Assembly: GCA_018725565.1 (NCBI GenBank)
Contig: QLUR01000025.1
Location: 1-40,085 of the forward strand
Source: Bacillota bacterium
Lineage (GTDB): Bacteria; Bacillota; Dethiobacteria; Dethiobacterales; Dethiobacteraceae
DNA length: 40,085 bases
Direction: 5' to 3'
Shown: positions 25,887 through 37,355 of the stretch, piece by piece
Numbering within the stretch: the first letter of the stretch is position 1
Layout of the letters: the number at the start of each line of letters is the position of its first letter
The notes under the pieces: model-generated
The model's input: only the letters and a program-made list of their open reading frames with translations
What the model was told of the DNA's origin: nothing
Databases searched by the model: none
Translations under genes and position numbers: made by a program

Positions 25887-26642
25887 TCAGCCTTGATTTC
25901 TATAACATAGGACAAAATCAGAAATACCGTTAACGCGCAAAATCTCTCTTGCGCGTTCTACATCCTGCTCGGTTGCATCAGGCACTCCTGCCAAACAGTA
26001 AATAAGGTCCAGGTTTCTCCATTTGTGCACACCCATAGTATGATAAGCCAGCAATTCCAAAGGGGGAACAAACGGCAGGGTCTTTATAAACTCTGCCAGT
26101 TTGCTTAACTCTTTTTCGTCATCTGTGTATCCTGGAATAATCACATAACGAATTAGCATCTTAACCTGAGAACGATTTAAGCTGATTATATTATTCATTA
26201 TTATCGCAGCATTACTCTGTCCGGTCAGTTTTTGATGCATTTCAGCAGTTGCTGCTTTAATGCTAACCATCCAAAGGTCTACGCCGGGGATTAATCCTTC
26301 TACCCATTGTTCTCCGCAGCAAAGGGACGTGTCCATTGCCACATGCACTTTATTCTCTTTTAAGAGCCGCACACACTGAGAAACAAATTCCCCTTGCAGT
26401 AAGGGCTCACCTCCAGAAAAAGTGAGCCCGCCTGCTTGATAAAAGAATTTGTTTTTGTTATACCTATCCAACACCTGTTGGGGCGTATAGAACTGCCCTT
26501 CGTCTCCGGCAGCGATTTCAGGATTATGACAAAACAGGCACTTCATCGGGCAGCCGGCCAAAAACAGCACCATGCGGACACCCGGCCCATCTACCGTACC
26601 AAATGCCTCTATTGAATGAATTAATCCCTTTAATCCACTCAA
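25887..26642 (-). CDS. pflA: pyruvate formate-lyase activating enzyme (radical SAM)
   Basis: 251 residues. The radical-SAM cluster motif is [13 protein letters not shown] (CxxxCxxC) near residue 31, followed by [11 protein letters not shown] for SAM binding. [20 protein letters not shown] is the usual opening of PflA. The enzyme abstracts a hydrogen from the glycine of PflB to form its radical, anaerobically in the cytosol. The start is TTG 26642, overlapping the pflB stop (TTGA), so the two are translationally coupled. Confidence 0.93.
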
Positions 26643-28918
26643 TTGTCAAACCCATTGTGGAAGAAAGTCCGGTTTAACACTTCCCGCTGCTGTTCTTCCG
26701 TCAACTTAATAAAGTTAACCGCGTAACCGGATACCCGGATTGTCAACTGGGGAAACTGCTCCGGATTTTTCATGGCCTCGACCAAAGTTTCTCTGTTCAT
26801 GACATTTACATTTAAATGCTGCCCACCGACATTGAACTGCCCATCCAGCAAGGATACTAAATTCTGACAACGGGAATTGTCCGTTTTACCTAAGCATTGG
26901 GGGGTCGCAGACAAGGTGTAGGAAACACCGTCCTTAGCATATTTATAGTCAACTTTAGACACAGAATTTAATGAGGCTAACACACCGCTGACATCCCGCT
27001 GGTGCATCGGGTTAGCGCCTGGCGCAAAGGGTTCGCCTTTTTGGCGGCCGCACGGGGTGGTTCCTGTTTTTTTGCCATAAACCACATTAGAGGTAATAGT
27101 CAATATCGACAGAGTGTGCTCGGCATTGCGATAGGTCGGGTTTTTGCGCAACTTGACGGCAAAATCGGCTACTATTTCTTTCGCTATATCATCAACCCGG
27201 TCATCATCATTCCCAAAGCACGGGAACTCACCATCAGTCTTAAAGTCTTGAATCAAGCCGTTTTCTCCAAATACCGGGACCACTTTGGCATATTTGATAG
27301 CGCTAAACGAATCAGCAACCACGGACAGCCCGGCAATACCGAAAGCCATATAAATATGAGGATTGACATCGTGCAGGGCCATTTCCAGCTTTTCATAGGC
27401 ATATTTATCGTGCATATAGTGGATAAGATTCATTGTGCTGACATATTGTTCGGTCAGCCAATCCAGGGTTTTATCAAAAGCAGTTCTCACTATATCATAG
27501 TTTAACACTTGCCCGGGTTGCGCCTTATAAAACTCAGGCGCCACCTTTAACCCTGTCATCTCATCCACTCCGCCGTTTAAAGTAAACAGCAGCGCTTTGG
27601 GCAAGTTAGACCGCGCTCCGAAGTACTGCGTCTCTAGACCTGCCCGCATTGCAGAAACGCAGCAAGAAATGACATAATCATCACCGTACACAGGGAGCAT
27701 CAAATCGTCATTTTCATACTGGATGGCAGAAGTTTCTATGGATAGCTGCGCACAAAACTCTTTAAATTTTTGCGGCAAGTCATTAGACCACAGCACAGTC
27801 AGGTTCGGCTCAGATGCCGGGCCAAGATTGCGCAAGGTCTGCAAGAAACGGAATGATGTTTTCGTAACCAAGGAACGTCCGTCTGCTCCCATGCCGCCGA
27901 TTGATTCCGTAATCCACATCGGATCACCGGCAAAAAGAGCATTATATTCTCTGGTGCGAAGCTGACGGGCCAAACGCAGCTTAATAACAAAATCATCAAT
28001 CAATTCTTGAGCTGCTTCTTCAGTAATAGCACCTATAGCCAAGTCCCGTTCAAGGTAAATGTCCAAAAAGGTGCTGACCCGGCCCAGGGACATGGCCGCA
28101 CCGTTTTGCTCTTTGATGGCACCCAGATAAGCAAAGTAAAGCCACTGGACCGCTTCCTTGGCAGTGTAAGCGGGGCCGGAAATATCAAAACCATAGCTGC
28201 GCGCCATTTCCTTTAACTCGTTTAAAGCATCTATTTGGTTGCTGATTTCTTCGCGCAGCTGAATTGTATCGGGGTTGATTTTTTGCAAAGCATCGCTTTC
28301 AAGCTGCTCCCGGCGCTCAGCAATCAAGCGGTCCACACCATACAGGGCAACCCTTCTGTAATCGCCGATAATCCGCCCTCTGCCATAAGCATCAGGCAAT
28401 CCTGTGAGGATGCCTGTCTTGCGCATCAGTTTCATAGTTTCAGTATAGGCTCTAAACACTCCGTCATTGTGGGTACGACGATATTTACTAAAAATCTCTT
28501 TCACTTCGTCATCAAGCTGATAGCCATACTCCTGGCAGGAAGTTTCTACAGTATTGATCCCGCCCCAGGGGTTTATAGCCCGTTTTAGCGGGGTATCCGT
28601 CTGCAAGCCCACTACTATTTCATTTTTTTTGTCCAGATATCCCGGAGCGTGAGCAGTTATAGAAGCGATGGTTTTAGTATCTATGTCGTACACTCCACCC
28701 CGCTTGTACTCTTCCATAATTAAATTGCTGCATTTTTCCCATAGCTTCTTCGTGCGAATTGTCGCACTTTTCAAAAACAAATCTCCTCCGACATAGGGCG
28801 TGTAATTTGCCTGAATAAAGGAGCGTACATCGATCGCCTTCTCCCAGGCTCCGGATTTGAACTCATGACGCAAGTAACGCAAATTTTCTGATTTTTCTAG
28901 GCACGTCTTCAATCCCAT
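26639..28918 (-). CDS. pflB: pyruvate formate-lyase (formate C-acetyltransferase)
   Basis: 759 residues, typical for PflB. It converts pyruvate and CoA to acetyl-CoA and formate by a glycyl-radical mechanism. The two catalytic cysteines are in [14 protein letters not shown] and the radical glycine in [12 protein letters not shown] near the C terminus. [15 protein letters not shown] and [14 protein letters not shown] are strong family blocks. ATG 28918 has AAAGGA five bases upstream; a GTG at 28921 is the alternative. It is divergently transcribed from the hydrogenase operon across a 360-base control region. Confidence 0.95.
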
Positions 28919-28989: not shown

Positions 28990-29132
28990 CCTTGCCAACT
29001 TAACCTTAACACTGCCCCTTGCAAGGTGTCAAGAACCCAAAGCGAAAAAGTAGAATTATTTAGAGATGCTTTATAATACATAGAACATCAGGGCGGCACG
29101 AGACAACCTTGACCAAGGCAAAGCGTTGCCTT
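28990..29132. promoter_or_regulatory. cluster of CCTTG/CAAGG inverted repeats between pflB and the hydrogenase operon
   Basis: A perfect CCTTGCAAGG (29017-29026) lies inside the spacer of the pflB promoter. CCTTG-AC-CAAGG (29107-29118) is followed by an overlapping AAGGCAA-AGCG-TTGCCTT (29115-29132). An imperfect CCTTGCCAAC lies at 28990-28999. The shared half-site CCTTG with 0-2 base spacers suggests one dimeric regulator; the XRE-cupin protein encoded next door is the obvious candidate. Confidence 0.5.
29004..29032 (-). promoter_or_regulatory. candidate pflB promoter
   Basis: On the minus strand a perfect TTGACA (29032-29027) is followed after 17 nt by TTAAGG (29009-29004), a weak -10. A palindrome sits in the spacer, so binding there would interfere with polymerase. 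Confidence 0.4.
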
Positions 29133-29196
29133 TTCATCGTTTCTGCTTTATTTGGTGTAAACCGTAAAGTATTAATTGACATCAATAAAATTATGC

Positions 29197-29226
29197 TTGA
29201 CATTTGTCGTGCCAGCATGTTAATAT
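29197..29226 (+). promoter_or_regulatory. candidate promoter of the regulator-hydrogenase operon
   Basis: TTGACA (29197-29202) and TAATAT (29221-29226) are separated by 18 nt. The predicted start at about 29233 lies upstream of the GTG start at 29283 and downstream of the earlier in-frame ATG codons, supporting the shorter regulator protein. Confidence 0.5.
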
Positions 29227-29282
29227 TTTCACAGGAAATATTTAATAGCAGCGTGATCTCGAATGAAGGGGTGTATAACAAC

Positions 29283-29930
29283 GTGGATCTGGCGTCCCGG
29301 CTGAAGTATCTGCGAACCACAAAGGGGATGAGCGTGCGCTCTTTGGCTAAAGAGGCCGGGGTTACACCTAGCTTTATTTATCAGATTGAAAACAAAGAAG
29401 CGGCACCTTCCCTGTCCACATTAAAAAGAATAGCCAAAGCGCTGGAAGTAAGCGCATCTTTCTTTATCGAAGATGAAGTTCCGGAAGAGTGGTTTATTCA
29501 AAAAGCAACGGCCAGAAAGAAGCTTATTACCGGCCAGGAGGGCCTGAATGTGGAGCTATTTACCTTTGCCGGCTCCAGAGTGAAGCGGCTGGAGGCGTCA
29601 ATAGTAAAGCTGGGGCCGAAGGCCAGGTCCGATCGGTATATCTACAACCATAGCCGGGACGACTTTATATACGTCTTGAAAGGGGCTTTTGAGTTTAAAC
29701 TGGATTGGGGGTGGTTTCGTCTGGAAGAAGGGGATGCAATGCACTTAAGCATCCAAGAATTGAGCGCGTTGCGTAACCCGGGAGAGCAGGAAGCAGTTGC
29801 ACTGTGGGTTGTATCCCCGACCTCGATAGAGCAGTCATTAACAACAACCGAAAAGCATAACCCAAGGGAGGAAGATCATTATGCACCAAACGGCTCAACA
29901 GAGTTTACGCCAGTTTGCCAAAGCGAATGA
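29283..29930 (+). CDS. XRE-family regulator with C-terminal cupin domain
   Basis: 215 residues from GTG 29283, 11 bases after GAAGGGG. The helix-turn-helix covers about residues 2-60 (LASRLKYLRTTKGMSVRSLA, SFIYQIENKEAAPSLSTL). The cupin barrel covers about residues 100-190, with RYIYNHSRDDFIYVLKGAFE, and probably senses a small molecule or metal. Its C-terminal 17 codons overlap the next gene, whose ribosome site is inside this one, so the regulator is made with the hydrogenase. It likely controls its own operon and perhaps pflB through the repeats at 28990-29132. The ligand is unknown; redox carriers, pyruvate or formate are plausible guesses. Confidence 0.82.
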   Translation: MDLASRLKYLRTTKGMSVRSLAKEAGVTPSFIYQIENKEAAPSLSTLKRIAKALEVSASFFIEDEVPEEWFIQKATARKKLITGQEGLNVELFTFAGSRVKRLEASIVKLGPKARSDRYIYNHSRDDFIYVLKGAFEFKLDWGWFRLEEGDAMHLSIQELSALRNPGEQEAVALWVVSPTSIEQSLTTTEKHNPREEDHYAPNGSTEFTPVCQSE

Positions 29931-30381
29931 AATCATTGACAAACACGGTCCCGAACCGGCTCATCTGATCAATATATTGCAGGATATACAGGAAGAGTAT
30001 CGTTATCTTCCCGAGGAGATTCTGTTCTATGTAGCTACAGCTATGGATATCTCCCCGGCCAAGGTTTTTGGGGTGGCTACTTTTTACGAGGACTTTTCTT
30101 TGGACCCCAAAGGCAAGTATGTAATAAAGGTGTGCGACGGCACGGCCTGTCATGTTAAGAAATCAACGGAGATACTGGATACCCTGAGAAGGGAGTTGGC
30201 GCTCAGCGAAGAGAAGCCCACCACGAACGACATGCTGTTTACGGTGGAAGTAGTTTCCTGTATTGGCGCTTGCGGGTTGGCGCCGGCGATCGTAATTAAT
30301 GACAAGGTGTATGCTAGGGTGACTCCTGGATTGACGGTAGATTTGCTCAATCGCATCAGAGAGGATGAGGCGTCCAGATGA
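29881..30381 (+). CDS. NuoE-like 2Fe-2S subunit of NAD(P)-linked [FeFe] hydrogenase
   Basis: 166 residues. The N-terminal helices (INILQDIQEEYRYLPEEILF) and the thioredoxin-like 2Fe-2S domain match NuoE/HndA/HydC. Cluster cysteines are in VCDGTACHVKKS (CxxxxC) and SCIGACGLAP (CxxxC). ATG 29881 has GGGAGGAAG upstream. The subunit carries electrons between the flavin subunit encoded next and the hydrogenase. It overlaps the following gene by four bases. Confidence 0.92.
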   Translation: MHQTAQQSLRQFAKANEIIDKHGPEPAHLINILQDIQEEYRYLPEEILFYVATAMDISPAKVFGVATFYEDFSLDPKGKYVIKVCDGTACHVKKSTEILDTLRRELALSEEKPTTNDMLFTVEVVSCIGACGLAPAIVINDKVYARVTPGLTVDLLNRIREDEASR

Positions 30382-32249
30382 AAATCATTTCCATGCAAGA
30401 CTATAACCGGCTATCCGATCTATGTGCCAGGGCGCTGGATAATCAACAGATTAAAGTGCTGGTAAGCGCCGATACCGCTGGCTTTGCCGTAGGGGCCCTG
30501 GAGGTATATCATAAGCTTCATGAGCTGATTCGGGAGCAGGGGTTGCTGGCAGACCTTGACTTGCATCAGCAGAAGACAGGTATCGGCCTTAAAAAAGGCG
30601 GTTGTTTCGGCTGTTTTGAGGGAGGGCCGCTGGTTAACATTCTGCCGCATGATTATCTCTATCAGGAGGTTAAAGAAGAAGATTGTGCGGAGATAGTGCA
30701 GACTACGCTCATTGAGGGCAAGCCGATCGAGCGGCTTCTGTTTAAGCGGGACGGCGTAATTTATAAGTCCCAGGACGAGATACCATATTATAAGAAACAG
30801 CTCAAACTGGTGCTGGGGAACTGCGGAAAGATTGACGCTGAATCAATAGAGGAATATATCGCCCAGGGAGGTTACAGGGGGCTGGCCAAATGTGTTTACG
30901 AAATGACGCCTGAGCAGGTATGCCAGACGATATCAGACTCCAAGTTAAGAGGGAGAGGCGGGGGCGGCTTTCCTGCAGGGCGCAAATGGGAGAGTGTGCG
31001 CAGGCAGAATGCCGACAAAAAATACGTTATATGCAACGGCGATGAGGGCGACCCGGGCGCCTTTATGGACAGATGTATTATGGAGGGTGATCCGCACGCG
31101 GTCATCGAAGGCATGGTGATCGGCGGCTACGCATCCGGCGCAAACTATGGATATATATATGTGCGCGCAGAGTATCCCCTGGCGGTGGCCAGGCTGCAAA
31201 AGGCGATCAATCAGGCCAGGGAGTATGGATTTTTAGGTGAAAATATACTTTCCACAGGCTTTAACTTTGACTTAAAGATCAGCAAAGGCGCCGGGGCCTT
31301 CGTCTGCGGGGAAGGAAGCGCGCTCCAGGAATCAATCCAGGGGAAAAGAGGTGTGCCCAGAGTAAGACCGCCCAGGACAGTTGAACGCGGACTTTGGGAA
31401 AAACCCACGCTTCTGAACAACGTCGAGACTTTCGCCAATGTACCCTACATTATCCTGAAGGGTCCGGAATGGTTCGTATCAATAGGCTCTCCGAATAATT
31501 CCGGAACAAAAGCGTTTGCGCTCGCCGGAAATGTCAGGGATAGCGGGCTGATTGAGGTTCCGATGGGCACTACGTTCGGTGAAGTGGTATTTGAGATCGG
31601 CGGCGGGGTTCCAGATGGAAGAAGGTTTAAAGCGGTGCAAATCGGCGGCCCTTCAGGCGGCTGTTTAACGGAGGCACATCTGGATCTGCCCATAGACTTC
31701 GACTCGCTCGACGAAGTCGGCGCCATGATGGGCTCAGGCGGGATGGTAGTCATAGACGACCGTTCTTGTATGGTCGAAGTGGCACGCTTTTTTATGTCCT
31801 TTACCCAGAAAGAATCCTGCGGCAAATGCGTACCCTGCCGGGAGGGCACAAAACGGATGCTCGAGATCATGGAAAGGATCGTCGATGGAAAAGGCAGCGA
31901 AGACGACTTGGCTATACTCGAGGACCTTTCCGGAACAGTAAGGCTGGGCTCATTATGTGGTCTGGGGAAAAGTGCCGCAAACCCGATCCTCTCAACCTTG
32001 AGATATTTTAAAGACGAATATATTAGCCATGTCCGAGAGAAAAAATGTCCGGCCGGAGTTTGTAAAAAGCTGTCAACATATGTGATCATGGCTGAAACTT
32101 GTAAAGGCTGTGCTAAGTGCAAAAAAATATGTCCTGCCCAGGCGATAGAAGGGGTTGTTAAAAATCCCTTTGCCATCATCCAGGAAAAGTGCGTCAAATG
32201 TGGCGTCTGCCTCGAAACATGCCCATTTAATGCAATCAGGGAGGCTTAA
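30378..32249 (+). CDS. NuoF-like flavoprotein subunit of NAD(P)-linked [FeFe] hydrogenase
   Basis: 623 residues. Order of parts: an N-terminal thioredoxin-like domain (about 20-120), then the NuoF flavin/NADH domain with GRGGGGFPAGRKWE and VCNGDEGDPGAFMDR-type motifs (here ICNGDEGDPGAFMDR), then the [4Fe-4S] motif ESCGKCVPCREGTKRM. Two ferredoxin-type clusters lie at the C terminus (CKGCAKCKKICP and CVKCGVCLETCP). It oxidises or reduces NAD(P)H and links to HydA, possibly by electron confurcation as in HydABC. The N-terminal domain keeps KKGGCFGCFEGG but lacks the first cysteine pair seen in homologues (it reads VLVSADTAGFAVG), so that cluster is probably altered or lost. Confidence 0.92.
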   Translation: MKIISMQDYNRLSDLCARALDNQQIKVLVSADTAGFAVGALEVYHKLHELIREQGLLADLDLHQQKTGIGLKKGGCFGCFEGGPLVNILPHDYLYQEVKEEDCAEIVQTTLIEGKPIERLLFKRDGVIYKSQDEIPYYKKQLKLVLGNCGKIDAESIEEYIAQGGYRGLAKCVYEMTPEQVCQTISDSKLRGRGGGGFPAGRKWESVRRQNADKKYVICNGDEGDPGAFMDRCIMEGDPHAVIEGMVIGGYASGANYGYIYVRAEYPLAVARLQKAINQAREYGFLGENILSTGFNFDLKISKGAGAFVCGEGSALQESIQGKRGVPRVRPPRTVERGLWEKPTLLNNVETFANVPYIILKGPEWFVSIGSPNNSGTKAFALAGNVRDSGLIEVPMGTTFGEVVFEIGGGVPDGRRFKAVQIGGPSGGCLTEAHLDLPIDFDSLDEVGAMMGSGGMVVIDDRSCMVEVARFFMSFTQKESCGKCVPCREGTKRMLEIMERIVDGKGSEDDLAILEDLSGTVRLGSLCGLGKSAANPILSTLRYFKDEYISHVREKKCPAGVCKKLSTYVIMAETCKGCAKCKKICPAQAIEGVVKNPFAIIQEKCVKCGVCLETCPFNAIREA

Positions 32250-32252
32250 CAG

Positions 32253-34220
32253 ATGAAATCCATGCAGATAAACGGGAAGACCGTTCAATTTGATCAAGAA
32301 AAAAATATGCTTGAGGTAATCAGAAACGCCGGGATAGAGCTGCCGACTTTCTGTTATTATTCCGAACTCAGTATTTACGGCGCGTGCCGTTTGTGTCTCG
32401 TCGAGGACAGAAAAGGGAATATAATCGCTTCTTGCTCCGAGCCGCCAAAGGACGGAGCGGAGATTTTGACCCATACGCTGCGGCTGCAAAAACAGCGTAG
32501 AAACACAATGGAACTTTTGCTGGCCAACCACGACAGGGATTGTACTACTTGCGGCAAAAGCGGCGCCTGCAAGCTGCAGGAGTTAACAAAGGCGCTTGGG
32601 GTGGACAGTGTCAGGTTCGGCAAGCACGATATCAGGCTGCCTTTGGATACTTCAAGCGCCTCACTTGTGAGGAATCCCAACAAATGCATCCTTTGCGGCG
32701 ATTGCGTCAGAGTGTGCGAGGAAATTCAAGGTATAGGCGTCATCGGTTTTGCCTACAGGGGCTCAAAAGCCCGTGTTACCCCTCCTTTTGATAAAAATTT
32801 GAGCGATGTCGCTTGTATCAGCTGCGGCTTGTGCGTTTCGCACTGTCCTACTGCCGCTTTGGAGGTAAGATCTGAAACAGATCATGTCTGGAGAGCGCTC
32901 TACGATGATACCAAAACGGTCGTCGCCCAGGTTGCTCCTGCGCTCAGGGTGTCATTCGGCGAGGCTTTCGGCTTAAAACCGGGAACGATCTCAACCGGCA
33001 AGATCGTCGGCGCGCTTAAAGCTCTCGGCTTTAAAATGGTCTTTGACACTTCATTCTGCTCTGATTTAACGGTTGTCGAAGAATCCGCAGAGCTAAACAA
33101 GCGAATTGCCGACAATGAATCTTTACCCCTATTTACCTCCTGCTGCCCGGCTTGGGTAAAGTTTGCCGAATTGAAGTATCCGAAATATCTTAAAAACCTC
33201 TCCACTTGCCGCTCGCCTCAGCAGATGCTTGGCTCGCTGGTAAAGGAGCGTTTTAAGCAAGCCGGAGAAAAGCAGGTGTACATGGTCTCCGTGATGCCAT
33301 GCACGGCCAAAAAAGAAGAGGCGAAAAATCCGAAATTCGCCGCAAACGGGGTAGCCGATGTCGATTCAGTGATCACGGCAATAGAGCTCGCCTCGATGAT
33401 CAAGTCCGCCGGAATTATTTTCGAGGAATTGGAAGAGCTGCCGTTTGATATGCCGTTTGGTTTCGCCACCGGAGCGGGCACCATCTTCGGTGTCACGGGA
33501 GGCGTTACCGAAGCGGTTTTAAGGGGTTTGAAACCAGGTAAGTCCGTATATAAAGAAGTAAGGGGGTTGCAGGGCCTCAAAGAATATTCGACCGAAGCCG
33601 GCGGCAGAGTGATCAAAGCTGCCATTGTGAGCGGGATTCAAAACGCGAAGAATCTGATTGCCAAAATAGAATCCGGGCAAGCGACTTATGACATTGTTGA
33701 GGTGATGGCCTGTCCGGGAGGCTGCGTCAATGGAGCAGGGCTTTCCGCCTCCCCGCATTCGGCAAAGACCAGGCTCAGAAGTGAAGGTCTTTACAAAGAG
33801 GACGCACAGATGCAGTTCGTGCGCTCCCCGGAAAACCCGGTCATAGAAAAGCTTTATGCCGATCTTCTGGGAAGCCCCGGCAGCCATAAAGCGCATGATC
33901 TTCTCCACACCCATTACAGCTCCAGGAAAAGGATTCACGCCATGGAGCTGGGTTTTGAAGAGAAGCCCCCGGAGAAGGCAGAGGAAATCAAGGTCTGCGT
34001 CGGCACCTGCTGCTATACCAAGGGTTCATATGATCTGTTCCAGGAATTTTTTAAAGAGATCGCAGAGCGCAACCTGGGAGAGCGGGTAAGCCTGCAGGCG
34101 ACTTTCTGCCTGGAACGGTGCCAGGAAAGCCCCAACATTAAGGTCGGCGACAAAATTTTAGGCGGGGTGAACCGGACCGATGTAGCGGGTATTCTCTCTG
34201 GTCTGACACCCAAGGAGTGA
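32253..34220 (+). CDS. hydA: [FeFe] hydrogenase, catalytic subunit with extra C-terminal 2Fe-2S domain
   Basis: 655 residues. N-terminal 2Fe-2S ferredoxin domain (CYYSELSIYGACRLC, cysteines from residue 34), His-Cys cluster (NHDRDCTTCGKSGAC) and two [4Fe-4S] clusters (CILCGDCVRVC, CISCGLCVSHC). The H-cluster domain follows with L1 FTSCCPAWVKF near 296, L2 MPCTAKKEEA near 349 and L3 MACPGGCVNGAG near 488. All four cluster cysteines and the proton-transfer cysteine are present. The last 75 residues add a thioredoxin-like 2Fe-2S domain (VCVGTCCYTKGSYDLF, TFCLERCQESPNI). It reduces protons or oxidises H2 in the cytosol with the two subunits before it. GGGAGG precedes ATG 32253. Confidence 0.95.
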   Translation: MKSMQINGKTVQFDQEKNMLEVIRNAGIELPTFCYYSELSIYGACRLCLVEDRKGNIIASCSEPPKDGAEILTHTLRLQKQRRNTMELLLANHDRDCTTCGKSGACKLQELTKALGVDSVRFGKHDIRLPLDTSSASLVRNPNKCILCGDCVRVCEEIQGIGVIGFAYRGSKARVTPPFDKNLSDVACISCGLCVSHCPTAALEVRSETDHVWRALYDDTKTVVAQVAPALRVSFGEAFGLKPGTISTGKIVGALKALGFKMVFDTSFCSDLTVVEESAELNKRIADNESLPLFTSCCPAWVKFAELKYPKYLKNLSTCRSPQQMLGSLVKERFKQAGEKQVYMVSVMPCTAKKEEAKNPKFAANGVADVDSVITAIELASMIKSAGIIFEELEELPFDMPFGFATGAGTIFGVTGGVTEAVLRGLKPGKSVYKEVRGLQGLKEYSTEAGGRVIKAAIVSGIQNAKNLIAKIESGQATYDIVEVMACPGGCVNGAGLSASPHSAKTRLRSEGLYKEDAQMQFVRSPENPVIEKLYADLLGSPGSHKAHDLLHTHYSSRKRIHAMELGFEEKPPEKAEEIKVCVGTCCYTKGSYDLFQEFFKEIAERNLGERVSLQATFCLERCQESPNIKVGDKILGGVNRTDVAGILSGLTPKE

Positions 34221-34483: not shown

Positions 34484-36199
34484 GTGGGAGTTATATCCAT
34501 TTCCAGCGCCAACTGCAAAAATTGCTATCGGTGTGTGCGTTTTTGCCCGGTTAAGGCGATCAACATAAAAGAAAACCAGGCCCGCCTGGAAGAAGATCGG
34601 TGTATCTATTGTGGGATCTGCGTCGGGGAATGTCCACAGAAAGCCAAGCGCATCGAAAACGGCCTGGAAGCGGTCAACCGCTACCGAGGTCAGGAGCAGC
34701 GGCTGGCGCTGAGCCTAGCCCCAACTTTCAGAGTGGTCTATTCTGATTCATTTGCTGAGCTAACAGCAAAGCTCCGTGGGCGAGGCTTCAGCCTGGTTGA
34801 AGAAACCGCGGTAGGCGCCCAGGCTGTGGCCGAGCAATTCAGACAGATGGCCGACCGGCTGCCTCCCGACCGCTGCCTGATTACATCTCCCTGCAGCGTG
34901 GCAATCACCTATATCGAAAAGTACTTTCCTCAGCTACTAACCCATTTGGCACCTTTGGTGTCGCCTATGATCGCGCACGGTCGTCTGTTAAAAGCCAAGT
35001 GGGGTTCGGATTTGAAAGTGGTTTTCGCCGGCCCCTGCATCGCCAAGAAAGACGAAGCCAAAGGAGCAGAGGTTAAGGAAGCAGTTGACGCGGTGCTTAC
35101 TTTCGACGAGCTGGCGTGCCTCCTGGCTGAACCGGCTTTTGCGGGTACAGGGGAGCCGGAAGATCTTCAGCCCGGACTTGAAGCCGAGGGAGGCCGCTGG
35201 TTTCCTCTTCCGGGAGGCCTTTTGAGAGCGGCGGGATTGGCCGAAGGGGTCTTGGAGCGCGATATTCTGATCGTCGACGGCATGGAAGAGATGAAAGATC
35301 TATTGAAGTCCCTGACCGCAGGGACGATAAAGCCGCGCCTGGTGGAGCTTTTGGCCTGCAAGGGGGGCTGTTTGGGCGGACCTTTAATAAGTTCAGATCT
35401 CACCGCTTACAGCCGGCGCGGCAAATTAATCGCTTCTCTGTCTCCGTATTCGGGTCAAGAGAAGCAGGCTGCCGGTCGCACTGCTTTGGGGCGCCGCTTT
35501 TTGGCCCAGCCTTACCGGCCGGTACGCCCGGGAGAGGATAAAATAAAAAGTATCATGAGGTCCATGGGCAAAGACAGGGCCGACAAAGAGTTAAACTGCG
35601 GCTCCTGCGGCTATCCATCTTGCAGAGACAAGGCTGTGGCCATTGCCCAGGGTATGGCGGAGCTGGAGATGTGTCTCCCCTACATGCGTGAAAAAGCGGA
35701 AAATATGGCTAACCTGATCATTGATTTTACGCCCAATGCCGTCTTGGTTGTTGATTCCAGCCTGATTATCCGGGAGTTTAATCTGGCGGCAGAGGTGATG
35801 TTTCAGGTTAAGGCCGAAGAGGTCAAGGGCAAGCCTTTGTCTGCAATTATGAACGAAGTTCATTTCCTGCAGGCTCTTGCCGGAAAAGAGACTTTTCGGG
35901 TTAAAGAGAGATGCGATCATCTGGGTCTGGTTACCTTGCAGACTCTTACCTATATCCACGAAGAGGATTTGGTGCTGGGGATAATCATGGATATAACCGG
36001 TATTGAGAAGCAGCAGCAAGCCCTGGAAACGATGAAGCGGGAAACCATTGACCGGGCGCAGGAAGTAATTGAGAAGCAGATGCGGGTAGCTCAGGAAATT
36101 GCCGGGCTGCTGGGTGAGACAACGGCTGAAAGCAAGGTGCTGCTGACCAAGCTGATACGCCTGGTCAAGGAAGGCGGCAGTGATCATGTTATCCCTTGA
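34484..36199 (+). CDS. sensory-type [FeFe] hydrogenase homologue with PAS domain
   Basis: 571 residues from GTG 34484 with AAAGGAG upstream. Order: two [4Fe-4S] ferredoxin clusters (CKNCYRCVRFCP, CIYCGICVGECP), an H-cluster domain, a further [4Fe-4S] domain (CGSCGYPSC, about residue 370) and a PAS domain (about 409-515, IIDFTPNAVLVVDSSLIIRE), then a short helix. The H-cluster loops are TSPCSVAI, GPCIAKKDEA and ACKGGCLGG. The four ligand cysteines are kept, but the proton-transfer cysteine next to the L1 cysteine is replaced by proline. That, with the PAS domain and the phosphatase that follows, fits H2 or redox sensing rather than bulk turnover, as proposed for group C [FeFe] hydrogenases. 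Function is inferred. Confidence 0.88.
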   Translation: MGVISISSANCKNCYRCVRFCPVKAINIKENQARLEEDRCIYCGICVGECPQKAKRIENGLEAVNRYRGQEQRLALSLAPTFRVVYSDSFAELTAKLRGRGFSLVEETAVGAQAVAEQFRQMADRLPPDRCLITSPCSVAITYIEKYFPQLLTHLAPLVSPMIAHGRLLKAKWGSDLKVVFAGPCIAKKDEAKGAEVKEAVDAVLTFDELACLLAEPAFAGTGEPEDLQPGLEAEGGRWFPLPGGLLRAAGLAEGVLERDILIVDGMEEMKDLLKSLTAGTIKPRLVELLACKGGCLGGPLISSDLTAYSRRGKLIASLSPYSGQEKQAAGRTALGRRFLAQPYRPVRPGEDKIKSIMRSMGKDRADKELNCGSCGYPSCRDKAVAIAQGMAELEMCLPYMREKAENMANLIIDFTPNAVLVVDSSLIIREFNLAAEVMFQVKAEEVKGKPLSAIMNEVHFLQALAGKETFRVKERCDHLGLVTLQTLTYIHEEDLVLGIIMDITGIEKQQQALETMKRETIDRAQEVIEKQMRVAQEIAGLLGETTAESKVLLTKLIRLVKEGGSDHVIP

Positions 36200-37355
36200 C
36201 ATTACCTGTAAAGCCCTGAAAAAACAAGGCGAAGAGCTGTGCGGCGACACGGTGGAAATAGTCCGGGACGACGAAAGCACTGTGATCGTGCTGGCCGACG
36301 GCTTGGGCAGTGGGGTCAAAGCGAACATCCTAGCCACCCTGACCGCCAAGATCATCGTCACCCTGATTAAAAACCATCTGGAAATTGAGGAAGTGGTGCG
36401 AACCATTGTCGAGACTCTGCCCGTATGCCGGCTGCGGGGGATCGCTTACTCCACTTTTACGGTAGTCAAGATCGATGCCAGCGGAGAAGCCCGGATCATT
36501 GAATTCGACAACCCCTCGGCCGTAATTTTTCGCGCAAAAAGCCCTTTGCCGCTTTCTTTCGAACAAAAAGAAGTGGAGGGGAGAACGATCCGGGAAACTC
36601 ACCTTCGGCTGCTTCCGGATGATGAGCTGTATATCTTCAGCGACGGAGTGGTCCACGCCGGTATCGGGAGCGCCTTAAAACTGGGCTGGCAGCGGGATAA
36701 CATCATCGCCGACATTGAGCGCATGACCCGGGCCAAAGATAGCTCCATCTACGAAAAAGTCGGCAGCCTCATCTATTTTTGTAATATTTACTACCAGGAG
36801 GCGCCCGGGGATGATTCTACGATCGTCGGCTTGAAGGTGCGCCAGCCCCGTCCGGGAGCAATTATGATCGGTTCGCCCTTAGAGCGGGAAAAAGATCGGG
36901 AAGTGGTGGACGTGCTGATGTCGGAGGGCAACTTTTACAAAGCAGTATGCGGCGGCACCGCTTCAAAAATTGTGGCCCGGGAAACCGGGCGTGAGCTGGA
37001 GGTCAATTTGGACTTTCCCGATCCCACAGTGCCACCCACCGGAATCATAAAAGGGCTCGATCTGGTAAGCGAGGGCGCCGTGACCATCAGTAAAGCTCTG
37101 GAGATGCTGCGCGCCATCTCCTGGGAAGAGGCGATCTCGCCGGATCTGGCAGAGAAAAAAGACGGCGCCTCACGGTTGGCCTCTTTTTTATTGGAAAAAT
37201 GCACCCAGGTAAAGTTCCTTATTGGCCGGCAGGAAAACCCAGCTCACCGGGGGGACGGTTTTCCTCCGGCGCTAAACCAAAAACACCGGGATCTGCAGGA
37301 GATTATCCATATCCTTAACGCCCTGGGCAAGAAAACAGAAGCTGTTTATTATTAA
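36186..37355 (+). CDS. SpoIIE/PP2C-type serine phosphatase linked to the sensory hydrogenase
   Basis: About 389 residues from ATG 36186, with GTG 36180 as alternative start. Metal-binding points of the PP2C fold are present: EELCGDTVEIV, VIVLADGLGSGVKA, DELYIFSDGVVHAGIG and APGDDSTIVGLKV. The last 160 residues have no domain I can name (VVDVLMSEGNFYKAVCGGTA). It overlaps the sensory hydrogenase gene by 14 bases. In related Firmicutes the PAS-hydrogenase and this phosphatase occur together, implying that the hydrogenase signal alters dephosphorylation of an unknown protein, perhaps an anti-anti-sigma factor (inference). No target is encoded in the window. The 110 bases after it hold no clear terminator. 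Confidence 0.88.
   Translation: MLSLDITCKALKKQGEELCGDTVEIVRDDESTVIVLADGLGSGVKANILATLTAKIIVTLIKNHLEIEEVVRTIVETLPVCRLRGIAYSTFTVVKIDASGEARIIEFDNPSAVIFRAKSPLPLSFEQKEVEGRTIRETHLRLLPDDELYIFSDGVVHAGIGSALKLGWQRDNIIADIERMTRAKDSSIYEKVGSLIYFCNIYYQEAPGDDSTIVGLKVRQPRPGAIMIGSPLEREKDREVVDVLMSEGNFYKAVCGGTASKIVARETGRELEVNLDFPDPTVPPTGIIKGLDLVSEGAVTISKALEMLRAISWEEAISPDLAEKKDGASRLASFLLEKCTQVKFLIGRQENPAHRGDGFPPALNQKHRDLQEIIHILNALGKKTEAVYY

Follow-up and report, generated by a model that had tools for sequence, protein, structure and literature searches.

A predicted operator of a local XRE-cupin regulator at [FeFe] hydrogenase promoters of Bacillota, with a candidate copy at a divergent pflBA promoter

Pyruvate formate-lyase and an NAD(H)-linked [FeFe] hydrogenase are encoded back to back in the window, the stretch of 40,085 nucleotides of a Bacillota bacterium that is analyzed here. 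The pflBA genes (minus strand) are divergent from a hydrogenase operon (plus strand), and the two are separated by an intergenic region of 364 bp. Does one regulator act on both promoters, and through which sequences? A sequence-only reading of this DNA had named CCTTG/CAAGG dyads in the intergenic region as shared half-sites of such a switch. It had also placed an XRE-cupin regulator at the head of the hydrogenase operon, and this is confirmed: the HTH_3 plus Cupin_2 gene comes first and is followed by NuoE-, NuoF-, and [FeFe] HydA-like genes (hydC, hydB, and hydA). Features are listed in Table 1. HydA scores 677.8 bits against the group A6 model, under the model's cut-off of 765. The frames of the regulator gene and hydC overlap by 50 bp (29881-29930), as they also do in the nearest relative (L069), which suggests translational coupling.

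Table 1. Genes and control sites of the pfl-hydrogenase region (positions in the window)
Feature	Positions	Strand	Basis or remark
pflA, pyruvate formate-lyase activating enzyme	25887..26642	-	TIGR02493 above cut-off
pflB, formate C-acetyltransferase	26639..28918	-	TIGR01255 above cut-off
Inferred pflB promoter: TTGACA 29032-29027, 18-bp spacer, extended -10 TGT-TAAGGT 29008-29003	29003..29032	-	Read from sequence
Candidate pfl operator TCTTGACACCTTGCAAGG	29017..29034	-	Degenerate operator copy, contains CCTTGCAAGG
CCTTG-AC-CAAGG dyad	29107..29118		Present; operator-matrix match no better than chance
Longer dyad AAGGCAA-AGCG-TTGCCTT	29115..29132		Present
O2, predicted weaker tandem operator AATTGACATCAATAAAAT, 21 bp upstream of O1	29174..29191	+	Conserved offset
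O1, predicted primary XRE-cupin operator GCTTGACATTTGTCGTGC	29195..29212	+	Position and frame as in 25 of 26 orthologs
xre-hydCBA promoter: TTGACA, 18-bp spacer, TAATAT with upstream TG	29197..29226	+	Consensus scan
Rex-like operator ATGTTAATATTTTCACAG over -10 box of hydrogenase promoter	29217..29234	+	2 mismatches to TTGTKAANNNNTTMACAA
XRE-cupin regulator gene, GTG start	29283..29930	+	HTH_3 and Cupin_2
hydC, NuoE/HoxE-like subunit	29881..30381	+	Profile match
hydB, NuoF-like subunit	30378..32249	+	Profile match
hydA, [FeFe] hydrogenase group A catalytic subunit	32253..34220	+	TIGR02512 above cut-off
hydS-like sensory [FeFe] hydrogenase with PAS domain	34484..36199	+	Profile and domain matches
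SpoIIE-type phosphatase domain protein	36180..37355	+	PF07228

The regulator has the general build of its class, an N-terminal Cro/C1-type helix-turn-helix (HTH) and a C-terminal cupin in one protein (HTH_3, 56.3 bits with a cut-off of 23; Cupin_2, 37.5 bits with a cut-off of 27.2). It resembles PuuR-like local regulators in its N-terminal HTH_3, its C-terminal cupin, and the position of its gene beside the target operon. However, it heads [FeFe] hydrogenase operons, and although the PuuR equivalog NF007408 is its best NCBIfam resemblance, the score of 41.6 bits is far under the cut-off of 211, so the protein is not PuuR. Unlike PuuR-type regulators, the cupin has lost most of its metal-ligand histidines, judging from the ortholog alignment, which makes a small molecule a likelier ligand than a metal centre. 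The closest solved structures match the regulator mainly in the HTH part. Within that part, the recognition-helix residues S30, F31, Y33, and Q34 are invariant in 22 orthologs. The regulator of the nearest relative, Dethiobacter sp. CROMO_A_244, is 87% identical.

The CCTTG/CAAGG dyads are indeed present at 29017 and 29107, the only two occurrences of CCTTG(0-8)CAAGG in the 40-kb window. The first, CCTTGCAAGG (29017-29026), is a perfect 10-bp palindrome, and CCTTGCC at 28990 is an isolated copy. They are not the region's conserved signal, however, and barely go beyond chance. Of dinucleotide-shuffled versions of the 364-bp region, 6% contain two dyads with 5-bp arms and one arm in common. The figure for a same-arm pair falls to 1.5% of shuffles within the earlier reading's own span (28990-29132), a span chosen post hoc. 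Dyads with 7-bp arms, such as the longer one in Table 1, number 64 in the window. The sharing of arms, judged by these shuffles, is suggestive and no more. By the weight matrix of the operator described below, the 29107 repeat is at background (about 0.1 to 0.2 equal-score chance positions expected per 364 bp), as is the 28990 repeat (5 to 7). CCTTG/CAAGG was dropped as an operator, as it is not the conserved signal and is mostly background by this matrix. Both promoters also have the heptamer TCGTGCC, noticed by eye; it was set aside, since a match of that length is expected by chance in 364 bp.

Phylogenetic footprinting, which had been proposed for this region, finds a conserved operator at the hydrogenase promoter, outside the span of the reported repeats. 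Orthologs of the XRE-cupin protein were gathered from whole genomes and named contigs; a scan of the genome contigs with the single protein gave no relatives, and an alignment query gave 24. The footprinting set consists of 26 distinct loci in which the XRE-cupin gene precedes hydC-hydB. These point to the palindrome ACTTkACA-NN-TGTvAAGT as the likely operator. In 25 of the 26 loci it lies across the -35 box and matches at 12 or more of its 16 positions; in 19 of them, 15 or more positions are kept. The -35 box inside it is always TTGACA, TTGACG, or TTTACA in these 25 loci. The one exception, L036, has no palindrome within 400 bp upstream. Where the regulator gene has other neighbours, the best matches reach 8 to 12 of 16, which is the background of this count.

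A weaker copy of the palindrome lies in tandem exactly 21 bp upstream, which is two helical turns. This distance is the single peak among all offsets scored in the orthologs, 5.5 sd over the other offsets, and none of 2000 shuffles is as high. The natural reading of the tandem is that two dimers would bind cooperatively on one face of the DNA.

In the window, the corresponding sites are O1 and O2, both beyond the 28990-29132 span. O1 covers the -35 box (29197-29202) of the xre-hydCBA promoter. Its left half is intact and its right half is partly lost compared with the Dethiobacter site ACTTGACGTTTGTCAAGT, leaving 12 of 16 positions; the weight matrix finds 3-5 equal-or-better positions in 440 kb of the window's genome. 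The counterpart of O2 in locus L033 is GATTGACATTGTTAAAAT. Farther upstream, an 18-bp block, TTGGTGTAAACCGTAAAG (29152-29169), is identical in the nearest relative. Its last letters, GTAAAG, resemble a half-site and lie another 21 bp upstream of the equivalent position of O2.

Operator and regulator also go together across genomes. In one class (113 genomes), exact operators are found in 9 of the 16 genomes with the regulator and in none of the 97 without it (Fisher p = 1.9e-9, a value not to be taken literally, as the genomes are related). A scan of 17 relatives gave just one site, located at the xre-hyd promoter, in 14 of them; two carry additional sites, and one lacks any site within one mismatch. 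In two genomes, G580 and G269, the regulator gene lies elsewhere with no site near it; the operator is still found before hydS-spoIIE in G580 and before hydCBA in G269. This separates control of the hydrogenase from mere autoregulation. The invariant recognition helix, the co-occurrence, the mostly single local site, and these loci in trans together indicate that the palindrome is likely the regulator's own site. The idea of one XRE-cupin switch therefore gains support for the hydrogenase, and perhaps for pfl, from a sequence other than the dyads on which it had been built.

Near-operators occur in other settings too. Genome G317 has two more that are near-perfect (L170 2245-2262 and L169 2630-2647), one about 500 bp ahead of a HydA-like gene, the other ahead of a PAS/HD-GYP gene; these extra near-matches are possible regulon members. 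Three genomes of one family have a promoter-embedded near-operator, wwTTGACAAGTGTrAAGTT (L178 4425, L179 4269, and L175 4239), away from the main hydrogenase genes of this window. In another family (L105, L111, L112, L114, and L115), XRE-cupin relatives are found directly before hydS and divergent from a HydC-like gene; their promoters have a different motif, with GTGTAAAC repeats in some.

The most likely reading is that the intergenic region serves a local, autoregulated XRE-cupin factor dedicated to the NAD(H)-linked [FeFe] hydrogenase operon and carries its control sites. Two dimers of the regulator would bind, one at O1 over the -35 box and the other at the weaker O2 two helical turns upstream, and together they would keep RNA polymerase off the promoter until a signal reaches the cupin domain. 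The same protein might instead be an activator that works beside RNA polymerase, since O2 lies upstream of the -35 box, where activators bind, and some orthologs have weak -10 boxes. We consider this doubtful, because O1 is the stronger and better conserved of the two sites and, wherever an ortholog has it, covers the -35 box together with much of the spacer, a placement that favours steric block.

Redox control by Rex, a repressor of fermentation and hydrogenase genes, is another candidate for the main switch at this promoter, with the XRE-cupin protein secondary. Rex controls hydrogenase-related genes in Bacillota via an 18-bp palindrome, with the consensus TTGTGAANNNNTTCACAA (PMC6391272). 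The XRE-cupin operator is similar in being an 18-bp palindrome at hydrogenase-related genes of Bacillota, but it differs from the Rex consensus in half-site order and sequence, and a separate Rex-like site exists in the same promoter. This site lies over the -10 box, only three positions in 440 kb of the genome match TTGTKAANNNNTTMACAA with 2 mismatches, and the genome has a Rex-type gene (Rex N-terminal domain; G000:C37:24691). Yet the operator conserved across relatives is not the Rex consensus (PMC6391272), the Rex-like site has 3 mismatches in the nearest relative, and no match as good as this one, the best of the intergenic region, is found on the pfl side. Rex as the main switch is distinctly unlikely.

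On the pfl side, a promoter-like element mirrors the hydrogenase promoter in its geometry; its -10 hexamer is poor, so the consensus scan does not list it. CCTTGCAAGG falls within its spacer, just as the sequence-only reading had placed a dyad there. The candidate pfl operator has the two halves TCTTGACA and TTGCAAGG and agrees with the consensus at 12 of 16 positions. Its intact half, CTTGACA, holds a perfect -35 box (TTGACA) facing pflB, and its degenerate half is part of the CCTTGCAAGG dyad. One of the reported repeats, 29017-29026, hence forms half of a degenerate candidate operator, whereas those at 29107 and 28990 do not rise above background as regulator sites.

Could CCTTGCAAGG and CCTTGACCAAGG serve a separate pfl regulator, e.g., one of the MerR type, which works from a dyad located between the -35 and -10 boxes? 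The two dyads have common arms and no further copies in the 40 kb, and one of them lies within the promoter spacer. MerR-type promoters have the dyad centred in a -35/-10 spacer of 19-20 bp. At pfl, however, 18 bp separate the two boxes, the dyad adjoins the -35 box rather than being centred, and same-arm dyads arise in 6% of shuffles, as noted above. Such a regulator is very unlikely.

Is the pfl site an XRE-cupin site at all? Sites within two mismatches of CTTGACANNTGTCAAG number three in the whole 2.67-Mb genome, and two of them, O1 and the pfl site, fall in the 364-bp region. The third, on contig C69, falls within a coding frame and is regarded as a chance match. By the weight matrix, 0.012-0.03 positions as good as the pfl site are expected per 364 bp. 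Simple counting puts the chance of the match at about 0.001, or at 0.004 once a perfect TTGACA is taken for granted. All these figures are optimistic, as the pfl match was noticed before the whole-genome pattern was chosen. On the full-family matrix, the pfl site has a modest rank, with 14-38 equal-or-better positions per 440 kb, and it has no tandem partner at +/-21 bp.

The XRE-cupin protein might therefore control the hydrogenase operon only, with the pfl match being chance on a consensus -35 box and other factors running pfl. The nearly always single and local operator of the relatives agrees with this, as do the lack of an O2-type partner and the modest rank of the pfl site. In addition, pfl lies next to the regulator, or in this gene order with the hydrogenase, in no other genome examined, the nearest relative included, so the footprint covers the hydrogenase side only. 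The upstream regions of pfl in four relatives, where it is unlinked, show no evident operator by eye. The clustering of two of three near-sites of the genome in this one region speaks against chance, as does the roughly 0.4% probability of the match even with the -35 box given. Control of the hydrogenase only is thus a serious possibility, somewhat short of an even chance. XRE-cupin control of pfl is only moderately supported, at a little over even odds. With the degenerate operator over the -35 box of pflBA, the regulator probably lowers pfl transcription.

A stronger form of shared control is a joint H2/formate switch, in which dimers bound at O1/O2 and at the pfl operator would shut both divergent promoters, perhaps through a DNA loop, and one signal would release both. 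Measured between centres, the pfl operator and the O1/O2 sites are 178 bp apart, or nearly 17 helical turns. This form is unlikely, and balancing of formate and H2 by one switch, as originally proposed, is something that the arrangement might allow. As for the signal, the HydS-like protein and the SpoIIE-type phosphatase of the operon may report H2. A hydS-like gene, for a sensory [FeFe] hydrogenase with a PAS domain, belongs to the operon both here and in three relatives (L128, L132, and L134). The HydS-type protein is a candidate upstream sensor and not the DNA-binding component.

On the evidence of operator position, conservation, and rarity, we prefer a local autoregulated XRE-cupin repressor of the [FeFe] hydrogenase that probably also lowers pfl transcription, with a probability of roughly 0.6. 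A local autoregulated repressor is an already known kind of system. A full-text literature search, whose scope left subscription journals mostly outside, turned up no description of this regulator or of its pairing with an operator at [FeFe] hydrogenases, and the papers on syntrophic hydrogenases examined make no mention of a cupin regulator.

The control of NAD(H)-linked [FeFe] hydrogenase expression in anaerobes is poorly described. For several lineages of Bacillota, among them the cultured species Desulfoscipio geothermicus, the present analysis offers a specific candidate regulator together with its operator and the genes that it likely controls. If the pfl site is real, the regulator would link the two main routes of electron disposal from pyruvate, H2 or formate.
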